A DNA stretch of 64,000 bases, from positions 1-64,000 of the forward strand of contig JARLGM010000003.1 of NCBI GenBank assembly GCA_031292755.1. Direction: 5' to 3'. The notes beneath the pieces are model-generated. The model did no database searches. It saw nothing but the letters and a program-made list of their open reading frames with translations, and was not told where the DNA came from. The position numbers and the translations under genes were made by a program. Below, piece after piece: positions 1,609-63,252 of this stretch (position 1 is its first letter; every line of letters starts with the position of its first letter). The DNA comes from Candidatus Sulfopaludibacter sp. GTDB lineage: Bacteria > Acidobacteriota > Terriglobia > Bryobacterales > Bryobacteraceae.

Positions 1609-2982
1609 ATGGAACTGAACGAATCCCGCCGCATGGAACTGAAGCGCGACCTGGGAACCTGGCCGGCCATTTCGATCGTGGTGGGTACGGTGATCGGAAG
1701 CGGTATTTTTCTGGTGCCCCGCACCATGATCCAGCAGGTGGGCACGGTGCCGGCGGTGTTCGCGGTTTGGGTGGTGGGTGGACTGCTATCCCTGGCCGGC
1801 GCCCTCAGCTACGCCGAACTGGCGGCGGCTATCCCGGAAGCCGGCGGCGAGTATGCCTATCTGCGCGAGGCCTACGGGCCGATGTGGGGCTTCCTTTATA
1901 GCTGGGCTCAATTGTGGGTGGCGAAAAGCGGTTCGATTGCTACTTTAGGCACCGGCTTTTTTCTCTATCTAACTAACTTTTTCCCATCCATGGACACGGT
2001 TTTCTATTCGGTTCCTCTCCCCATCGGACCTCACGGGGGGCCGTTGGACATCCGCTCCGGCCAGATATTCGCCATTGTCCTGATCCTGCTTTTGGCCTGG
2101 CTGAATTACTATGGGGTAAAACTCGGCGGCAATGTTCAGGTGGCGGTGACCGCGGTGAAAGTAGCACTAATCGCCTTTGTTATCATTGCCGGAATCGGCT
2201 TCGGTCATCCTCACGCGATGAGCGTGGGCGCGATTGCGCCTTTGACTTTTCACGGTTTCATAGCCGCTTTGGTAGCGGCCCTATGGGCGTACGACGGATG
2301 GAACAACGTCAGTATGGTCTCGTCGGAAATTCGCGAGCCCCAGCGCAATCTACCATTAGCCTTAATTGGAGGCACACTTGGAGTAATTGGCATCTATTTA
2401 CTGGCGAATATCGCCTATTTTCGCGTGATGACGCCGGCGGAGGTGGCGGGCGGCACCCGTGTGGCGGCCGATATGATGCGCAAAGTGATGGACGGGTTCG
2501 GCGCCAATGCGGTTTCCATCGCCGCCATGATCAGCATTTTTGCCGCGCTGAATGGCTCGATTCTCTCGGGAGCCCGCGTCCCCTACGCCGCGGCGCGCCA
2601 GGGACTGTTCTTTCGGGCCATCGGCAATGTAAGCCCGAAACACCGCACTCCGGGCGTCTCCATTATCGTATTGACCCTCTGGGCGTGCCTCCTGGTGCTG
2701 TCCGGGCGGTATGACGACCTGTTCAACCTGGTGATCTTCGCCAGTTGGATTCTGTACGGCATGACCGCCGCGGCAGTGATTGTGTTGCGCCGGAAGCAGC
2801 CCGCCTTGCCGCGTCCTTACCGAACATTGGGGTACCCCTTTGTACCATTACTGTTCATTATTGCGGCCGTTATCTTAATTGTTTCCACCGCCATCGATCG
2901 CCCGCGGGAATCGGGAATGGGAATCTGTCTGATATTAGCGGGCCTTCCCTTTTATTTTTATTGGAAAAGGCAGCGCCAGTAA
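1609..2982 (+). CDS. APC-family amino acid permease
   Basis: Predicted inner-membrane amino acid permease of the APC superfamily, 457 residues with about 12 hydrophobic segments. The first helix carries the Gly-rich VVGTVIGSGIFLVPR motif (about residues 24-38) in which backbone atoms bind the substrate. The next segment (SYAELAAAIPEAGGEYAYLREAYG) is typical of LAT-like and basic amino acid permeases. The organisation resembles the L-type amino acid transporter group, but the substrate is not predictable. It follows the symporter by 17 bases. An in-frame ATG at 1633 is an alternative start. Codon use between about 1920 and 2420 and in the last 200 bases looks somewhat more AT-rich than neighbouring genes. 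Confidence 0.87.
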   Translation: MELNESRRMELKRDLGTWPAISIVVGTVIGSGIFLVPRTMIQQVGTVPAVFAVWVVGGLLSLAGALSYAELAAAIPEAGGEYAYLREAYGPMWGFLYSWAQLWVAKSGSIATLGTGFFLYLTNFFPSMDTVFYSVPLPIGPHGGPLDIRSGQIFAIVLILLLAWLNYYGVKLGGNVQVAVTAVKVALIAFVIIAGIGFGHPHAMSVGAIAPLTFHGFIAALVAALWAYDGWNNVSMVSSEIREPQRNLPLALIGGTLGVIGIYLLANIAYFRVMTPAEVAGGTRVAADMMRKVMDGFGANAVSIAAMISIFAALNGSILSGARVPYAAARQGLFFRAIGNVSPKHRTPGVSIIVLTLWACLLVLSGRYDDLFNLVIFASWILYGMTAAAVIVLRRKQPALPRPYRTLGYPFVPLLFIIAAVILIVSTAIDRPRESGMGICLILAGLPFYFYWKRQRQ

Positions 2983-3171
2983 GGTGTTCCAGGCATTTGT
3001 ACTAGCCGAACGAAAGTACTTTTTAGCCCTAATTTCACATGTTATTTGCTTTCGTTGTCTTGAAACTCTTTGTCATCCGATTGAAAATCGAGGTGTATAC
3101 TGGAATCATAAAAGAGATTCCTCAAATTCGTTCGTCGATAAGTAGCGTCGAACGCCGGGAGGGCCTTAGTC

Positions 3172-3393
3172 ATGGATGTCGCAAAGATTCTTGCCGAATT
3201 GAAATCGGAACGTGAACAGATCGAGGAAGCGATTCTTAGTTTGGAACGTCTTGCGCGCGGACGCACGCGTGGTCGCGGCAGACCCCCAGCCTGGATGACG
3301 GAACTGGATGCACCGAAGAGACGGGGGCGGCCGCCAGGCAGCAAGAATAAAGTGCAGGCGGGTGCTACCGCCAAGACAGTCGCCGTAGCCTGA
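3172..3393 (+). CDS. Small AT-hook protein
   Basis: A 73-residue basic protein. Residues 1-28 (DVAKILAELKSEREQIEEA...) look like an amphipathic coiled coil. Two AT-hook-like cores follow: GRGRPP at residues 34-39 and RRGRPPGSKNK at 50-60. AT-hooks bind the minor groove of AT-rich DNA, so a nucleoid-associated or architectural regulatory role is the natural inference, with the coiled coil dimerising it. The ATG at 3172 follows GGGAGGG (3157-3163) at good spacing. A strong hairpin terminator lies 30 bases downstream, so the gene is a monocistronic unit. The 190-base leader region before it is more AT-rich than its surroundings and holds possible but unconvincing promoter hexamers (for example TATACT at 3096). 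Confidence 0.75.
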   Translation: MDVAKILAELKSEREQIEEAILSLERLARGRTRGRGRPPAWMTELDAPKRRGRPPGSKNKVQAGATAKTVAVA

Positions 3394-3422
3394 ACGTCAA
3401 TTTCGCAACTAAGTCAAACTGA

Positions 3423-3456
3423 ACGGACCCGCCTACCAGCGGGCCCGTTTTCTTTT
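3423..3456 (+). terminator. Rho-independent terminator after AT-hook gene
   Basis: Ten-base arms ACGGACCCGC (3423-3432) and GCGGGCCCGT (3439-3448) pair with one A-C mismatch around a six-base loop. They are followed by TTTCTTTTTT, a textbook intrinsic terminator. It ends the short AT-hook transcript and faces the convergent htrA-like gene, which ends at 3467. Confidence 0.85.
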
Positions 3457-3466
3457 TTGCCCCTGC

Positions 3467-4615
3467 CTACAACACAGATGGCGCTTCGCCCAATTTGATT
3501 TTGATGTCCATGGTGCGGCCCCGGCGATAGACGGTCAGAAGCAGCATATCGCCTCCCCGTTTTCTGTCCATCACCTTTTGCAGCGCGTCGCGTGTCGTCA
3601 CGGGCTGGCCTTCCACCGCGACAATCAGGTCGCCGCCCACCGCCAACTGGTAGGCGCCGCCCACAATCACCACGTCATTGGGTCCCCGCAGACCAGCCTC
3701 TTCGGCGGGAGAGCCGCGCACCAGTTGGGTAATGAGCAGTCCCCCCTTGGCGGGAAGGTCCAGCATCTCGGCCAGGTCGCCGGTCACCCATACCTCTTTG
3801 ATCCCCAGGACGGGGCGCGAAATATGGCCGCTCTTGTTGAACTCGTCGAGCATGCTCTTGGCGCGATTGATGGGCATGGCGAAGCCGATTCCGATATTCC
3901 CCTGTCCGTAGATCGCGGTATTGATGCCAATCACATTGCCGTGCGAATCCAGCAGGGGTCCGCCGCTATTTCCGGGATTGATGGCCGCGTCGGTCTGGAT
4001 CATTCCCTCCAGCGCATTGCTGTTGGCATCGGTCTGGATGGTGCGATTCAGCGAACTGACAATTCCCGTGGTGAGCGTGCCTTCGAACCCGAAGGGGTTG
4101 CCGATGGCCAGCACTTTCTGTCCCACCACCAGCGCATCGGAATCTCCCAGGCGCATGGTGGGCAGTTTGCGTCCCGTGTCGATCTTGATCAGCGCCAGGT
4201 CGTCACGCGGGTCGGTGCCCAGCACTTTGGCCTTATAGACTTTCTTGTCCGCCAGAGTGACGGTCAACTGTGAAGTGCCCTTCACCACGTGATGGTTGGT
4301 CAGGATTTCGCCGTCGGCATTGAGGATGAAGCCCGAACCCGTGCCTTCCGACGGGTACACCTGCATGAAGAAATTCTCGTGGTACACCACCGAAGTGATA
4401 TTTACCGTAGCCTCGCGCGCCGCCTTATAAACATCGATATTATTCTGCTCGTCGGACGAAAAGCCGGAGGCCGCGGACGCCGGCGAATCCCAATAACGCC
4501 CGTTCGCGGCAGAAGGCGGCAGCAGCCTGGAGACATTCCAGTGCCCCACGTTGGTGATGTACAGGAACGCGCCTACCAGAATGGCGGCCCACAGAAATGG
4601 TCGCAACGCTTTCAT
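3467..4615 (-). CDS. HtrA/DegP-like serine protease with PDZ domain
   Basis: Envelope quality-control protease of the trypsin-like S1C family, 382 residues. Residues 7-22 form one N-terminal membrane anchor, so the catalytic part should face the periplasm. The catalytic triad is visible: His109 in TNHHVV, Asp139 in RDDLAL, and Ser217 in GNSGGP. A single PDZ domain occupies about residues 270-375 (LITQLVRGSPAEEAGLRG), as in DegS-like or short HtrA proteins. The start ATG overlaps the coaE stop as ATGA, so translation is probably coupled to coaE. The grouping with coaE and folD does not suggest a specific substrate. Confidence 0.92.
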   Translation of the reverse strand: MKALRPFLWAAILVGAFLYITNVGHWNVSRLLPPSAANGRYWDSPASAASGFSSDEQNNIDVYKAAREATVNITSVVYHENFFMQVYPSEGTGSGFILNADGEILTNHHVVKGTSQLTVTLADKKVYKAKVLGTDPRDDLALIKIDTGRKLPTMRLGDSDALVVGQKVLAIGNPFGFEGTLTTGIVSSLNRTIQTDANSNALEGMIQTDAAINPGNSGGPLLDSHGNVIGINTAIYGQGNIGIGFAMPINRAKSMLDEFNKSGHISRPVLGIKEVWVTGDLAEMLDLPAKGGLLITQLVRGSPAEEAGLRGPNDVVIVGGAYQLAVGGDLIVAVEGQPVTTRDALQKVMDRKRGGDMLLLTVYRRGRTMDIKIKLGEAPSVL

Positions 4616-5217
4616 GATTCGATTCTCCGTAACGCTTCGTAAACCGCCCGGGTCTGCCGCAGCGTATCCTCCTTTTCGCCGGATGTATCTACGACGAAAT
4701 CGGCAAACTTCAGTTTCCCGGCGACCGGCATCTGACGGCTCAGCCGGGCGCGCACGTCGCTTTCGACCGCGCCGGGCCGGCGCATGGCGCGTTCCACCTG
4801 CTGCTCTTCCCGGCAGGTCACCAGAATCAAGCGATCAAACCGGTGGTAGCTGCCGGTTTCAATCAGAATGGCGGCTTCCACCACGGCAATTCCACGCGGC
4901 TCGCGGGCGGCGAAATCGGCGGTCAATTCATCCTCGCGGCGCATCACGTAAGGATGCACCAGGGCATTCAGCCTGGCCAGTTTTTCCGGCGACCCAAAGA
5001 CGCGAGCGGCCAGCAGACGGCGGTCCACGTGACCGTCATTGCTGAGGATCTCATCGCCGAATTCCTGCACTACCATGCGGTAAACTTCTCCGCCGGGCTC
5101 GAGGGCTTCATGGCCCAGCAGGTCCGCCTGAATCAACAGGCAGCCAAAGCCAGCCAGCGCTTCGCCGACATAACTCTTGCCGCAAGCCAGCCCTCCGGTC
5201 AGGCCAACTTTCAGCAT
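4612..5217 (-). CDS. coaE: Dephospho-CoA kinase
   Basis: Catalyses the last step of coenzyme A synthesis, phosphorylating the 3'-hydroxyl of dephospho-CoA with ATP in the cytoplasm. The 201-residue length is normal. The P-loop GLTGGLACGKS lies at residues 5-15, followed by the family's acidic QADLLGHEAL segment (DxxxH) at about 30-39 and the VHPYV segment near residue 87. It overlaps folD upstream by 7 bases and the htrA-like gene downstream by 3, so these three minus-strand genes form one tight operon. Confidence 0.95.
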   Translation of the reverse strand: MLKVGLTGGLACGKSYVGEALAGFGCLLIQADLLGHEALEPGGEVYRMVVQEFGDEILSNDGHVDRRLLAARVFGSPEKLARLNALVHPYVMRREDELTADFAAREPRGIAVVEAAILIETGSYHRFDRLILVTCREEQQVERAMRRPGAVESDVRARLSRQMPVAGKLKFADFVVDTSGEKEDTLRQTRAVYEALRRIES

Positions 5218-6131
5218 AGCCCGGCCCGGCGTTCCGCTGCGGCCACGGTATTCACCATGAGCATGGCGATGGTGAGCGGACCCACACCTCCCGGAACCGG
5301 AGTGTAAAACGACGCCAGTTCCGCCACATCCGCGGGATTGACATCGCCCACCAGCACGTTGCCGCGCTTATCGAACGCGGCCAGCCGCTCTTCGGAATTC
5401 CGGAAAATGCGCGCCGCCTCCTGCCGGTCGTCCACGCGATTGGTGCCTACGTCGATCACCACCGCGCCCGGCCGGATGAACTCCCGCGTGATCATCGCGG
5501 CGCGTCCGATGGCCGCAACCAGGATATCCGCCTCGCGGCACACCGCAGCCAGGTCCGGCGTCTTCGAATGGCAGATGGTCACGGTGGCATGCTCGTGCAG
5601 CAGCAGCATCGCCACCGGCTTGCCCACGATATCGCTGCGCCCCACCACCACCGCCCGTTTCCCCGCAATCGGGATCCGGTATCGCTTCAGCAACTCGATG
5701 ATGCCGGCGGGAGTGCAGGCGCGCGGTCCAGGCAATCCGGCGACCAGGTTGCCGACGTTGCACGGGTGGAAGCCATCGACATCCTTCTGCGGCGCCACAG
5801 CCAGCAGGATGCGCTTCGTATCCACCTGCTTGGGCAATGGAAGCTGCACCAGGATGCCGTCGATATCGGGGCGCGCGTTGAGCTGCTCGACCGTCGCCAG
5901 CAGTTCCTCGGTGGTGATGGAATCGGGCGGCGCGATCGATTCGGAGAAAATCCCCAGGTCCTGGCAGGCTTTGATTTTATTGCGGACGTAAATCTCCGAC
6001 GCCGGGTTGTGGCCTACCAGCACTACGGCCAGTCCCGGCGGGCGGCCCTTGGCGGACAAGGCCGCTACCCGCGGATTTAATTCGCTTTTGATTTCGTCGC
6101 GAACGCGATTTCCGTCCAGAATTTGCGGCAT
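5211..6131 (-). CDS. folD: Bifunctional methylene-THF dehydrogenase/cyclohydrolase
   Basis: FolD interconverts methylene-, methenyl- and formyl-tetrahydrofolate with NADP(H) in cytoplasmic one-carbon metabolism. The protein from the ATG at 6131 is 306 residues, close to the usual length. Visible signatures are YVRNKIKACQDLGI (catalytic Tyr and Lys of the YxxxK motif) near residue 50, QLPLPKQVD near 95, the Rossmann segment VVVGRSDIVGKPVAMLL near 165, and PGGVGPLTIAMLM near the C-terminus. A TTG at 6140 is in frame, but the ATG is preferred because homologues begin with a similar short lead-in. It heads the folD-coaE-htrA operon. Confidence 0.95.
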   Translation of the reverse strand: MPQILDGNRVRDEIKSELNPRVAALSAKGRPPGLAVVLVGHNPASEIYVRNKIKACQDLGIFSESIAPPDSITTEELLATVEQLNARPDIDGILVQLPLPKQVDTKRILLAVAPQKDVDGFHPCNVGNLVAGLPGPRACTPAGIIELLKRYRIPIAGKRAVVVGRSDIVGKPVAMLLLHEHATVTICHSKTPDLAAVCREADILVAAIGRAAMITREFIRPGAVVIDVGTNRVDDRQEAARIFRNSEERLAAFDKRGNVLVGDVNPADVAELASFYTPVPGGVGPLTIAMLMVNTVAAAERRAGLC

Positions 6132-6169
6132 TCCATTCAACGGTACCGCAGTGCGCGCGCGTTTGGCTC

Positions 6170-6544
6170 CTACCGTTCGCGGCGGGTGCGGGGTCGGAGT
6201 TCCAATACGGTTTGCGCGGAACTCGGGCCCTGCCGGCGCACGGAGGCGGGCTCGAACTGCTCGCGCAGGGTTTCGGCGGCGGCTTTGGCCTCTTCGGCCT
6301 GCAATTGGGCGTGCAACTCTTCGGCGACCTCGAGGAATTTGCGGTAGCGCGGCTCCCAGATTTTCAGGAACGGGCGCGGATCCAACCTGCCCTTTACGGC
6401 TCCCCGCTGGTACAGGCGTTCTTCAAACGCCTGGCTGACGAGATTCTTTTCCAGTTTTTCGCGACAGGCATCTTTCAGAATGCCGGTGAGCCAGAGCAGT
6501 TCCTGGTGATCCAGTGAGGCGAGCGGGTTCTTGCAGTCGGACAC
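6170..6544 (-). CDS. Conserved hypothetical protein
   Basis: I do not recognise this protein. The open frame extends upstream to 6697, but that part overlaps vapC and looks non-coding. A GTG at 6544 (VSDCKNPLASLDHQELL...) gives a 124-residue product without overlap. It is strongly helical and charged, with DPRPFLKIWEPRYRKFLEVAEELHAQLQAEEAKAAAETLREQ suggesting a coiled coil in the second half (written here only as its start, DPRPFLKIWE, and end, TLREQ, being the informative parts). No signal peptide or membrane segment is present. It sits 38 bases upstream of folD on the same strand and may be co-transcribed with it. Confidence 0.5.
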   Translation of the reverse strand: MSDCKNPLASLDHQELLWLTGILKDACREKLEKNLVSQAFEERLYQRGAVKGRLDPRPFLKIWEPRYRKFLEVAEELHAQLQAEEAKAAAETLREQFEPASVRRQGPSSAQTVLELRPRTRRER

Positions 6545-59217: not shown

Positions 59218-60486
59218 CTACTTCTTGGCGGATGTGCCGGTGGCCGCGCCGTGCAGTTTGACTTCGACCTTCTCCTCCAGGCTGTCGTAGTACTCCTTGA
59301 GAATGGCAATGACTTCGGGCTTGGAGAACTCCGCCGGTACCGGCTTGCCTTCGCTCATCAGTTTGCGGAGGAGCGTGCCGGAAAGCAGGAGACGGGCGCC
59401 GCCTTTGTAGTTGCCCGCTTCATCGATCACCGCTTTGCTGGAATGCGGGCAGGTCTTCATGGAGGCCATGGTGCCGCATTCGTAGCAGTAGAAGGTCCAA
59501 TCCATGCAGAGCGGCTGGAGCAGCAACGCACCGGCCGGTATCTCGTTGAAGATCTTCTGCGCGTCGAACGGGCCGTAGTAATCGCCGACTCCGGCATGAT
59601 CGCGGCCCACGATGAGGTGCGTGCATCCGTAGTTCTGGCGGAATAACGCGTGCAGCAGGGCTTCGCGCGGGCCGGCGTAGCGCATTTCCATGGGGTAGCC
59701 GCCCTGAATCACGCGATCCTTGCGGAAGTACTTGTTGACCAGCGCGTCGATCGCCTTGACTCGGGTTTCGGCGGGGATGTCGCCGGGCTTCAGCTTGCCC
59801 ACCAGTTGATGGATGTAGACGCCGTCGCAGACTTCAATCGCGATCCAGGCCAGGTAGGCGTGGGAATTGTGCATCGGATTGCGAAGCTGCAGGGCGGCCA
59901 CGGTGCTCCAGCCTCGCTCGGCGAATGCCTTGCGGGCTTCGGCCGGCCGCTGGTAGATGCCCTGGAACATTTCGGGGTAGAAGGATTCGGAAACCACCTT
60001 GACGGGACCGGCGATATTGACCGCGCCCTGTTCCATCACCTTCTGCACGCCGGGGTGCGCCGGGTCATTGGTCCGGAACACCTGCTTGCACTCGTACTCC
60101 TTGTCGATCGCATATTTTTCAGCGATCTTCATGGTGCCCATGATGGACTCGGTCTCGACGTCCCACAGCGCCACTTCCTCGCCCACCGCGATCGATTTCG
60201 CATAGTCCTCTTCGGCCGACAGTGTAATGGGAATCGGCCAGAACAGCCCGTTCTTACTGGGCATGAGGTAAGACTCGCAGCAGCCGTGCCAGTCATCCCG
60301 CCCCATAAAACCGTCCAGGGGCGTAAACGCGCCAATGCCCATCATGATGAGGTCGCCGGTTTCCCGGCTGGTCATCGGCAATTTTTTCAGATGCTCCGCT
60401 CTGAGGGTCTCTTCCCGTGCGGCTTCACCTTCCAGCAGCAAGGGCCGCAGTTCTCCGCCGCCGTGCGGCAGAATCAGCTTACTCAT
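59218..60486 (-). CDS. sat: ATP sulfurylase (dissimilatory-type sulfate adenylyltransferase)
   Basis: Forms adenosine-5'-phosphosulfate from ATP and sulfate, or the reverse in sulfur oxidation. The protein is 422 residues from the ATG at 60486, which follows AGGAGG at 6-base spacing; it is the single-chain Sat type, not CysDN. Active-site blocks are visible: [16 protein letters not shown] near 205 with the HxxH pair, [20 protein letters not shown] near 280, and [20 protein letters not shown] near 305. The zinc site [15 protein letters not shown] lies near 346. It is divergent from a cysteine-rich regulator and near dsrD- and dsrN-like genes, which points to dissimilatory sulfur metabolism. 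Confidence 0.93.
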
Positions 60487-60546
60487 CGATAGCCTCCTAT
60501 TGCCTGAAAAACCCTTTACCACGTCGATATTTAAGTTTTGCAGGTA

Positions 60547-60617
60547 TTAAACAACTCAATAATAGAGCTAGAAAAGGAAATTGTCACCGGATTTCTTGGC
60601 CTCGCGATGTTGTTTAA
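60547..60617. promoter_or_regulatory. sat promoter (minus strand) flanked by TTAAACAAC/GTTGTTTAA arms
   Basis: On the minus strand GTGACA (60582-60587), 17 bases, and TATTAT (60559-60564) form a good promoter, putting the sat transcript start near 60552 with a leader of about 65 bases. A perfect 9-base inverted repeat brackets it: TTAAACAAC (60547-60555) over the start site and GTTGTTTAA (60609-60617) upstream of the -35 box, 53 bases apart. This would suit a looping or cooperative regulator. Confidence 0.65.
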
Positions 60618-60621
60618 GTCC

Positions 60622-60634
60622 CCAATAATATTGG
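60622..60634. promoter_or_regulatory. CCAATAATATTGG palindrome between sat and regulator
   Basis: A perfect 13-base palindrome (6-base arms around one A) in the AT-rich spacer between the divergent sat and HTH-regulator genes. The CAATAATA part also occurs at 60557-60564 in the sat promoter. It is a candidate operator. Confidence 0.5.
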
Positions 60635-60722
60635 AGTTAGGCTTGTCTTCAGCGGCAAACGCAGAAACCGCTGCCCCTTCCCGCCTCCCTCCCCGAAATC
60701 CAGAAATCGGGTATTCAGACCA

Positions 60723-60751
60723 TTGATTCCCGGATCAGGAGTGTGGATAAT
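60723..60751 (+). promoter_or_regulatory. Promoter of the HTH/cysteine-rich regulator gene
   Basis: TTGATT (60723-60728), a 17-base spacer and GATAAT (60746-60751). The transcript would begin near 60758, leaving a leader of about 24 bases that includes GAGG (60768-60771) before the ATG at 60782. Confidence 0.7.
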
Positions 60752-60781: not shown

Positions 60782-61552
60782 ATGGGTAGCCCATTGTTGA
60801 CCACCGGCAAGGCCGCACGGATGTGCTCGGTCAAGCCGGATACCGTACTGAAATGGATCAAGAAGGGCGTGCTTCCAGCAACCCGCACCATGGGAGGCCA
60901 CTACCGGGTCGAAGAGCAGGACCTGCTCCAGGTGCTTGCCCCGGAAGATGGCAGCGAGGGCTGCGGCGAAGACAACACCCTCTGTTCCCGCCCCATGCGT
61001 TGCTGGGAGTACTTGAGCAACAGTCCCGGCGTGGAGTGCCAGGAATGCGTGGTGTACAAGACGCACGCTACGTGGTGCTTCCGGCTGGTGGGCGTGGTAA
61101 AGGGCGCGGGTCATACCAGGCGATTCTGCAGCGGTCTTTGCCAGGAATGCCCCTATTACCGGCGGGTTCACTGCTTACCGGCGAACGTGCTGGTGGTCAG
61201 TCAGGATGAGGCCCTGATCCGCGAGTTGGCGAAGAAGGAAAACGATGCCGTAGCCTTCCGCTTCGCGCGCCGCGGCTACGATGCCTCGGCCACCATCGCG
61301 GTGTTCCGGCCGGCATTCGTAGTGATCGACCAGGCCATTCTGGAAGATCTGGGCATGGCGTTGCTGGATGCGCTGGCTTCGGACCCCAGGGCGCGCGGGA
61401 CACGGATCATCGTGGCGGTCCGCAAAGGCTCCATGGGTCTGCGCACACATAACCGCGCGGTTTACGCAATGATCGAGGAACCGTTCCATGCCGACGACCT
61501 GGTGGCCATCGTGAACCGGATTCCGGTGGAGACGCTGGCTGACGAGGCCTAG
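60782..61552 (+). CDS. HTH regulator with cysteine-rich domain and pseudo-receiver
   Basis: A 256-residue protein. Residues 5-55 (LTTGKAARMCSVKPDTVLKW, then RTMGGHYRV) form an excisionase/MerR-like winged helix-turn-helix. Residues 61-131 hold ten cysteines in a CWEY-x(n)-CxxC-x(n)-C ... CxxxCxxCPYY pattern like the two-CW modules thought to bind metal or Fe-S. Residues 135-250 look like a receiver fold with Asp183 at the acceptor position (FVVIDQ), but the conserved Lys is replaced (MIEEPFHADD). It is divergent from sat and convergent with the dsrN-like gene, 10 bases between stops. Inferred role: redox- or metal-sensing control of the sulfur genes. Confidence 0.75.
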   Translation: MGSPLLTTGKAARMCSVKPDTVLKWIKKGVLPATRTMGGHYRVEEQDLLQVLAPEDGSEGCGEDNTLCSRPMRCWEYLSNSPGVECQECVVYKTHATWCFRLVGVVKGAGHTRRFCSGLCQECPYYRRVHCLPANVLVVSQDEALIRELAKKENDAVAFRFARRGYDASATIAVFRPAFVVIDQAILEDLGMALLDALASDPRARGTRIIVAVRKGSMGLRTHNRAVYAMIEEPFHADDLVAIVNRIPVETLADEA

Positions 61553-61562
61553 TCTCGCCGGC

Positions 61563-62969
61563 CTATACCAAGGCGGCGGAGCGGGCGGCTTGCAGCATAC
61601 CGCGGGCCCATTCCGGTGTGGCCAGGGCGTGGAGGTGGGTGTAGGCGGCCCAGATGTTGCCGGTAACGACCGCATCGCGGCCCTGGCAACAGCCCGTTCC
61701 GCGGAGCACCGCGCAGGCGGTGTCCAGTGTGCCGGAGGGCCCGCAAATTCTCGAATAGTGGAATTCGTGGCCGCGCAACCGGGTGCCCGGGGCGAAGAAC
61801 GCGTTGGGCCGGTCCACCAGAAGCTCCACATAGCCATGCCCCTGCGGAGAGTCGCACAGATCCACTTCGAACGGCAGAGCGCCGGCCATGGGATAGCGGC
61901 GTCCCCGCCAGGTGAGGGCGCGCGACAGGTACATCAGGCCGCCGCATTCGGCATAGATGGGAAGGCCGCGGCGGGCGGCCTCGCGGACCGAAGCGAGCAG
62001 GCTGGAATTCGCGGATAACGCTTCGGCGTGCGTCTCCGGAAACCCTCCGCCGATGTAGAGGGCGTCCAAACCCGCGGGAAGCTGCGGGGCGGCGAGACTG
62101 GAGATGGCCACCAGGCCGGCGCCGGTGGCGCGCAGGGCCTCGAGATTCTCCGGGTAATAAAAACAAAATGCCGCGTCGCTGAGGAAGCCGATTTTGACTC
62201 CGCTGCCGTCGATCTGCTCCGGCGCCCAGGCGTACGGCACGGCGAGCGGCGCCGCCTGGCGTGAGATCGCGAGCAGGCGGTCGAAGTCCAGATAGGCGCC
62301 CACCGCTTCCCTCAACTGCCGGGCCAGCAGTCCGCGGTCCGGATGCTCGTGAGGCGTCACCAGACCGAGGTGGCGGGAAGGCAGCAGCACATCGGCTTTG
62401 GCACGGGGAATCGCGCCCAGCACCGGAACGCCGCAGGTGGATTCGATGGCTTCCCGGAGGATGCGCTCGTGACGGGCGCCGCTGACCTGGTTGACTACCA
62501 CGCCCGCGATTTCGACCTCCGGATCCAGGTGCCGGCAGCCCAGCACCAGCGCCGCCGCCGTACGTGTGATCTTAGTGGCGTTCACCACCAGCACCACCGG
62601 GGCGCGCAGAGTCTTGGCCAGTTCCGCGGTGCTGTGCGTGCCGCGGGCGTCGGCGCCATCGTAGAGGCCGCGGTTGCCTTCGATCACGTTGCACCCGCCC
62701 GGCACGGCGTGGCGCGCGAAGCTCGCGGCGGCGCGCTCGAAGCCCATCAGGTAAGGATCCAGATTGCGGGCGGGACGGCCGGAAGCCCATTCGAGCCAGG
62801 CCGAATCGATGTAATCGGGCCCTTTCTTGAACGCCTGGGCGGTAATGCCTCTCCGCCCGGCTTCCAGCAGCAATGCCAGTGAGACGAGAGTCTTACCAGA
62901 CTCTCCGGAAAGGCCGGCGACCACCAGACGCGGCAAGCCGGCCGTGGCCGCGGCACTTTCCATACTCAT
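61563..62969 (-). CDS. dsrN: DsrN-like siroheme amidase / cobyrinate a,c-diamide synthase (CbiA type)
   Basis: A 468-residue glutamine-dependent amidotransferase of the CobB/CbiA family. The N-terminal dethiobiotin-synthetase-like ATPase has GLSGESGKTLVSLALLLEAG near 20 and KKGPDYIDSAWLEWASG near 48. The C-terminal triad-type glutaminase has the nucleophilic cysteine in IYAECGGLMYLSRAL near 335. In cobalamin synthesis the enzyme amidates cobyrinic acid; in sulfate reducers the close homologue DsrN amidates siroheme of sulfite reductase. Because a DsrD-like gene overlaps it (TGATG) and no other cobalamin gene is present, the DsrN reading is favoured. This remains inference. Confidence 0.75.
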   Translation of the reverse strand: MSMESAAATAGLPRLVVAGLSGESGKTLVSLALLLEAGRRGITAQAFKKGPDYIDSAWLEWASGRPARNLDPYLMGFERAAASFARHAVPGGCNVIEGNRGLYDGADARGTHSTAELAKTLRAPVVLVVNATKITRTAAALVLGCRHLDPEVEIAGVVVNQVSGARHERILREAIESTCGVPVLGAIPRAKADVLLPSRHLGLVTPHEHPDRGLLARQLREAVGAYLDFDRLLAISRQAAPLAVPYAWAPEQIDGSGVKIGFLSDAAFCFYYPENLEALRATGAGLVAISSLAAPQLPAGLDALYIGGGFPETHAEALSANSSLLASVREAARRGLPIYAECGGLMYLSRALTWRGRRYPMAGALPFEVDLCDSPQGHGYVELLVDRPNAFFAPGTRLRGHEFHYSRICGPSGTLDTACAVLRGTGCCQGRDAVVTGNIWAAYTHLHALATPEWARGMLQAARSAALV

Positions 62970-63217
62970 CAGTTGCCCGGCGTACCCTCTTTGGGCGGAA
63001 GCGTGATATACGAGCCGCCCAGGTAGCTGTAGACACAGCGTCCGGAATCCATGAGTGCGCGAATGGCCTGCTTACAATCATCCTTGCTGCAGGCTGCATC
63101 GCCGTGCCGGGCGATCATTTCCTTGGTCAGGTCGCCGGCTTTCAAATTTCTCTTTCCGGCGTACTGCGTTACCAGAGCAAGCATTTCGTCGGCCAGAGCG
63201 TCAATTGTGACGGGCAT
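62969..63217 (-). CDS. dsrD: DsrD-like winged-helix protein
   Basis: An 82-residue protein from the ATG at 63217, which follows GGAGGG. Its pattern fits the small winged-helix DsrD of sulfate reducers: helix ADEMLALVTQYAGKRNLKAG, recognition helix KDDCKQAIRALMDSGRCVYS, and wing YLGGSYITLPPKEG aligned with the GSTTMYGL region of Desulfovibrio DsrD. DsrD stimulates sulfite reduction by DsrAB and marks the reductive direction. Its stop overlaps the dsrN-like start. The order dsrD-dsrN is the one known from Desulfovibrio, but here dsrAB are not directly upstream. Short length limits certainty. Confidence 0.65.
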   Translation of the reverse strand: MPVTIDALADEMLALVTQYAGKRNLKAGDLTKEMIARHGDAACSKDDCKQAIRALMDSGRCVYSYLGGSYITLPPKEGTPGN

Positions 63218-63252
63218 GAAGCCCTCCATTCCAGATATTCGGATCTACTTAC

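Follow-up and report, generated by a model that had tools for sequence, protein, structure and literature searches.

A family of candidate BldC-like regulators carrying a cysteine module and a pseudo-receiver, linked to dissimilatory sulfur genes in several bacterial phyla

BldC of Streptomyces is a 68-residue, stand-alone winged helix-turn-helix (HTH) protein (PDB 6amk/6ama), each protomer of which binds one 9-bp direct repeat of the form AATTXXXX(C) (PMC5859096). Arg30 of BldC reads the C-G pair and His46 sits in the AT-rich minor groove; the protein assembles into cooperative multimers on direct repeats and has no effector domain (PMC5859096). Among regulators of dissimilatory sulfur genes that answer a sulfur signal, the ArsR-type proteins sHdrR and SoxR (PMC10451225, PMC12423496) provide a working analogy only, as they differ from the protein described here in fold and DNA-binding domain and belong to loci of sulfur oxidation, not of sulfate/sulfite reduction.

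Our analysis of a 64,000-nucleotide stretch of Candidatus Sulfopaludibacter sp. DNA (contig JARLGM010000003.1; hereafter the window) concerns a candidate regulator gene at 60782..61552 (+), which encodes 256 amino acids plus stop. The protein consists of an HTH domain (residues 1-52), a linker (53-69), a module with seven conserved cysteines, here called Cys7 (70-131), and a pseudo-receiver (132-250). Both the open reading frame and the order of HTH, cysteine module and receiver fold were confirmed as the initial annotation had given them. A sigma70-like promoter lies at 60723..60751 (+) and consists of TTGATT (60723-60728), a 17-bp spacer and GATAAT (60746-60751); it ends 30 bp before the ATG at 60782 and fits this start, and the same 17-bp spacing was seen again in all six relatives compared. 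A longer reading frame beginning at 60743 is unlikely because it would overlap with the -10 element. The three-part architecture is common to 40 homologous loci, which is more than chance would give, and no homologue was found in the plasmid collection searched. Moreover, no family model in Pfam or NCBIfam covers the whole architecture, and our searches of mainly open-access literature retrieved no described regulator of this kind, in line with the earlier remark that none was known. What is new is the multi-domain family, built on a BldC-type HTH that is already known.

The HTH domain (60782..60937, +), winged and of the excisionase type, is matched by the Pfam model HTH_17 (5e-11, 43 bits against a cut-off of 27) and by TIGR01764 (41.6 bits against 28.8), and BldC is its nearest solved structure (6amk, 8e-9; Foldseek hit 6ama_Y, rmsd 1.4 Å). 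The motifs PDTVLKWIKKG and RTxGGHYR are near-invariant across the homologue alignment. BldC His46 corresponds to the invariant H40 of the regulator, whereas the position of BldC Arg30 is taken by Lys24. The NCBIfam model of BldC itself (NF033787), which describes a stand-alone HTH, scored 40.8 bits on the regulator, below its cut-off of 77; unlike BldC, the regulator adds the Cys7 module and the pseudo-receiver. The protein can be regarded as an example of a BldC-type HTH fused to sensor-like domains.

Over-represented dyads were sought upstream of 46 non-redundant regulator genes; those ranking first were AT-rich words with a 9-bp period, present in up to 17 sequences as compared with at most 10 in shuffled sets. 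Direct repeats of 9 bp, (ATAAAATCC)n, are common to the regulator promoters and are the type of site that BldC binds; an example is the array ATAAATTCCATAAAATCCATAAAACACATAA in locus L040. Motif discovery by expectation maximization (EM) yielded ATAAAAtCCATAAAAtCCAtAA, with log-likelihoods of 204 at width 18 (63-71 in shuffled sets) and 235 at width 22 (77-81 in shuffled sets). The repeat of the predicted sites reads ATAA-AATC-C, and these sites resemble BldC sites in being AT-rich 9-bp direct repeats with a C at matching spacing. In a held-out test, each group was left out of motif training in turn and the best site of the whole locus was recorded. For 23 of 47 loci, 7/7 scored Zixibacteriota loci among them, this site was in the 320 bp preceding the regulator, a position expected for 3% (p 6e-23). 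The motif trained without Zixibacteriota had its top site in 1.2 Mb of genome G479 40 bp upstream of the regulator. In several Acidobacteriota loci, the motif trained without this phylum had its best match in the promoter or start region of the regulator, and it also matched upstream of dsrD-dsrN, at 20.5 bits in L017 and 18.7 bits in L018. Direct repeats of the BldC-recognized type thus occur in silico in the target promoter across the family, and the HTH type and the predicted site type, which were found independently, agree. A genome-wide regulon could not be drawn from motif matches: in the 1.2 Mb of G479 the regulator promoter alone was convincing, with few clear sites elsewhere, and no site lay in the sat/apr block of this genome among the matches listed.

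The operator sites are weak in the window and in its close relatives. One weak candidate, CCCGAAATCCAGAAATCGGGTA at 60692..60713 (+), lies just upstream of the -35 element, and two held-out motifs placed it at rank 7 or 6 among the 63,979 positions of the window; in relatives this place is occupied by AATCCAGAAAATCAGA (L013, L014) or AATCCATAAAATCC (L017, L018). A second weak candidate at 60549..60570 (+), in the sat-regulator intergenic region, ranked 3 of 63,979 with the motif trained without Acidobacteriota, the same motif that placed the first candidate at rank 7. The initial annotation had suggested 60547-60634 as the binding region. The inverted repeat there, TTAAACAAC...GTTGTTTAA at about 60547-60616, is present in the window but not conserved, as L013 has only one arm and L014-L018 lack it. 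The evidence favours direct repeats of 9 bp, as bound by BldC, instead. Locus L044 also has a gene resembling those of Rrf2/IscR-type regulators, and the 9-bp repeat array some 80 bp ahead of it (4200-4240) is strong, at 22.6 bits, which suggests cross-regulation.

The cysteine module (60989..61174, +) is characterized by C74-W-E, C86-x2-C89, C99 and C116-x3-C120-x2-C123. The protein has cysteines at positions 15, 61, 68, 74, 86, 89, 99, 116, 120, 123 and 131, so that the ten cysteines reported earlier for residues 61-131 are indeed present; the family conserves only seven of them (74, 86, 89, 99, 116, 120 and 123), and those at 61, 68 and 131 are not family-conserved. W75, E76 and cysteines 74, 86, 89, 99, 120 and 123 are invariant in the homologue alignment, while C116 is kept in more than 90% of the rows and is replaced by His in L042 and L047. 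The proposed likeness to two-CW proteins did not hold up: the two-CW model (NF045718, 35-bit threshold) found nothing at the regulator gene when the genome that carries it was searched at E<=10, and a profile comparison with hhalign gave a probability of about 1% with a two-CW template of two sequences only. What the two have in common is a C-W-E start, a later C-[WFY], a CxxC-x-[YF] and a similar number of cysteines. Searched as a fragment against Pfam and NCBIfam, the module matched no family. Foldseek with the module modelled alone returned no match at E<=10, a result that says little about the novelty of the fold because the model was of low confidence (pLDDT 64.5). The module thus has no known family, and it would be the likely sensor or metal site of the protein.

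We also found a short subfamily (L061-L065, from one Acidobacteriota family; a further member, L066, is cut off at a contig end) that has the HTH and six of the cysteines in the pattern CWE...CxxC...CW...CxxC and no receiver; examples are L061 6818-7207 (-), L063 5065-5436 (+) and L065 4788-5159 (+). These genes lie directly upstream of dsrK...P or adjoin sat-dsrN, and their lack of a receiver suggests that the HTH and cysteine module form the core unit, with the pseudo-receiver as an accessory. Furthermore, L029 carries a second, truncated regulator paralogue of 133 aa (2678-3079, +) with the HTH and a partial cysteine module; it lies upstream of the macro gene, and its promoter contains a 9-bp repeat array.

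The C-terminal domain (61175..61531, +) adopts a receiver fold in the structure prediction (AlphaFold2 mean pLDDT 84.6; VIA-align Z 14.7, rmsd 2.3 Å over 116 residues), although the Pfam model Response_reg (PF00072) scored only 14.8 bits against a gathering cut-off of 30.2. Asp183 is kept at the acceptor position, the acidic pair is replaced by S140-Q141, the Thr position is Val213 and the Lys position Glu233. These positions were compared between 39 homologues and a reference set of CheY plus nine canonical receivers encoded in the same loci. The first position of the acidic pair (D12) is never acidic in the homologues and is T or S in 36/39; the second (D13) is D in 8/39; the Thr position is T/S in 2/39, and the Lys position is K in 17/39 and E in the clade of the window. 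The acceptor-position Asp, kept in 35/39, is hence the only element of the PF00072 active site (acidic pair, acceptor Asp, Thr/Ser and Lys) that is generally retained. Since an intact acidic pair is missing throughout, the whole family has a pseudo-receiver in this place. The earlier description of a receiver with the acceptor Asp and without the Lys is accurate for this protein, but the loss of Lys is specific to the clade and it is the acidic pair that is lost family-wide. In the comparison with response regulators, of which CosR came first by fold, the receiver fold is shared and the degraded active site resembles that of atypical receivers; in contrast to them, the regulator has the reverse order with the HTH first, its HTH is BldC-type, and a cysteine module lies in between.

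In the window, the regulator is flanked by a divergent sat gene for sulfate adenylyltransferase (59218..60522, -; NF003166, 468.8 bits against a cut-off of 387), which is adjacent also in L013-L018, and by a convergent dsrN-type gene for cobyrinate a,c-diamide synthase (CobB/DsrN-type amidotransferase; 61563..62969, -; NF002204, 416.8 bits against 254), in agreement with the neighbours claimed initially. A dsrN homologue lies near dsrD and dsrB in L027. The following small gene (62969..63229, -) had no significant Pfam or PDB match and is called dsrD-like by context, its homologue being next to dsrB in L027; DsrD of Acidobacteriota may have diverged too far for the model to recognize it. A paper on peatland Acidobacteria, in which MAG SbA3 contains L013, describes dsrD and dsrN as paired in the MAGs and discusses no regulator of these genes; its Fig. 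2 highlights four syntenic genes whose function is unknown (PMC6018796), of which the regulator gene may be one.

To place the gene in a wider context, we examined the 40 loci from the genome-collection scan for relatives, which by record titles come from about nine phyla (Acidobacteria, Gemmatimonadota, Zixibacteria, Elusimicrobia, planctomycetes, Myxococcota, 'Deltaproteobacteria', Poribacteria and Latescibacterota). Neighbour markers were set by NCBIfam/Pfam and then tblastn and comprised dsrB (over cut-off), DsrC, DsrK-like, HmcF/TmcB-like, HmcE/TmcC-like, macro domain and PAS kinase. At least one Dsr/Hmc/Tmc/Sat marker was found within about 8 kb in 27/40 loci, often co-directional with the regulator (one of them, L032, by a weak DsrO match only), and none was nearby in the other 13. 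For a rough estimate of chance, we took 1.2 Mb of G479, selected so as to contain the dsr cluster of this genome; about 10% of this stretch is no further than 8 kb from any of the markers. Three arrangements recur: the regulator followed on the same strand by DsrC-DsrM-DsrK (L021, L027, L033, L045; DsrC also follows in L019, L020, L023 and L044); the regulator followed on the same strand by macro-HmcE/TmcC-HmcF/TmcB-PAS kinase (L037-L041, L051); and the regulator between divergent sat and convergent dsrN-dsrD (window, L013, L014, L016-L018).

Several neighbouring genes have features of their own. In 14 loci the HmcE/HmcF-type operon invariably includes the macro-domain gene (ADP-ribose-binding type; for example L026:7105-7647, L037:2986-3516 and L041:8836-9408). 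L026 encodes an HmcF/TmcB-like iron-sulfur protein (4578-6365, -) with a C-terminal fusion to a canonical receiver (Pfam 1.6e-15) as well as a PAS histidine kinase (3002-4453, -) with C-x2-CP motifs repeated in its PAS domains (CEICP, CEPCP); this kinase recurs beside the regulator and is a possible second Cys-based sensor. L027:6192-6839 (-) encodes two tandem DsrC domains in one protein, and similar genes occur in L021, L033 and L045.

The link to sulfur genes is also evident at the genome level, in surveys less prone to bias than the locus set. In a survey of 396 Acidobacteriota genomes, with HTH-only matches set aside, 11 had the regulator, 32 had dsrA and nine had both, so that dsrA was present in 9/11 regulator genomes as compared with 23/385 others. 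One of the 11 (G092) is truncated where its contig ends; dsrA was missing from two carriers, both of which have congeners that possess it. The regulator is not universal, being absent from 23/32 Acidobacteriota genomes with dsrA. Among 61 close relatives, six had the regulator, five had dsrA over cut-off and four had both. A second survey, of the phylum to which G482 belongs (Zixibacteriota according to record titles), found the regulator in 30/132 genomes, and dsrA/dsrB-level matches occurred in 28/30 of these versus 24/102 others. Fisher's test gave p 2e-9 for the Acidobacteriota and p 3e-12 for the second phylum, values that, like the p-value of the held-out operator test, overstate the evidence because loci within one phylum are not independent. 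A sulfur electron-transfer operon lay beside the regulator in 13 of the 18 loci fetched from the second survey, mostly with the regulator first in a macro-HmcE-HmcF-kinase operon. For the 39 genomes behind the first locus set, dsrA was over cut-off in 24 and any DsrAB-level match was seen in 27; about eight had neither dsrAB nor a clear neighbour, and as MAGs they may be incomplete. Overall, linkage and co-occurrence with dsr-type genes are conserved in the family, and the homologues do not lie mostly outside sulfur loci, which supports the initial designation as a candidate sulfur-locus regulator.

Three other explanations were weighed against these data. The cysteines could build a structural zinc fold only, in a constitutive, autoregulated DNA-binding or architectural factor that, like BldC, senses nothing itself. 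BldC does multimerize on direct repeats without an effector domain (PMC5859096), and six Cys plus C/H at one position are compatible with zinc sites; yet strict conservation of CWE, the seven cysteines and the pseudo-receiver across phyla, together with the specific linkage to sulfur redox genes, suggests more than scaffolding, and we regard this explanation as rather doubtful. Even less probable is a response to something general in anaerobes, such as redox state, a metal or oxygen, with an indirect link to sulfur genes. It would account for the several loci without sulfur markers (L024, L030, L035, L043, L047, L049) and for regulator paralogues elsewhere in some genomes, but co-directional, operon-level linkage recurs across phyla and the predicted operators sit in the promoters of those sulfur operons.

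An atypical response regulator in which Asp183 is still phosphorylated by the linked PAS histidine kinase appears to us quite improbable. Retention of the acceptor-position Asp, and of Lys in less than half of the homologues, is what it would lead one to expect, and a PAS kinase and a canonical receiver gene adjoin the regulator in many loci. However, the acidic pair and the Thr position are degraded as described above, the PAS-kinase operons encode their own canonical receiver, and no kinase gene was recognized beside the regulator of the window. The active-site residues of the 39 homologues indicate that standard phosphorylation chemistry has probably been lost, as the initial annotation had considered possible.

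We therefore regard it as probable that these BldC-like proteins are one-component regulators and form a new family dedicated to dissimilatory sulfur respiration. Motif and position suggest how such a protein might act: the BldC-type winged HTH would bind head-to-tail on tandem 9-bp direct repeats in its own promoter, resulting in autoregulation. It would also control the linked Dsr/Hmc/Tmc/Sat electron-transfer genes, because the regulator is often first in, or divergent from, DsrC-DsrMK, Hmc/Tmc-type and sat/dsr operons, and in some Acidobacteriota it would probably act at dsrD-dsrN too. Zn or an Fe-S cluster would probably be bound by the Cys7 module, which may report thiol, sulfide/persulfide or redox state. 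Having lost its Mg-binding acidic pair, the receiver fold would most likely serve as an oligomerization or partner surface and not as a phospho-switch. More tentatively, the family could be a multi-phylum sensor-regulator of dissimilatory sulfite/sulfate reduction, in which Cys7 reads persulfide of the DsrC pathway or Fe-S status and the phosphorylation-free receiver relays this to a cooperative head-to-tail assembly on the 9-bp repeats.

To our knowledge, the control of dissimilatory sulfate/sulfite reduction is poorly understood outside Desulfovibrio, and most of the bacteria concerned are uncultured. The predicted operator should help to identify electron-transfer operons (DsrMK, Hmc/Tmc-type, DsrC) that may be under common control. 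Together with the conserved regulator, it represents a testable candidate switch for the genes of sulfate/sulfite respiration.
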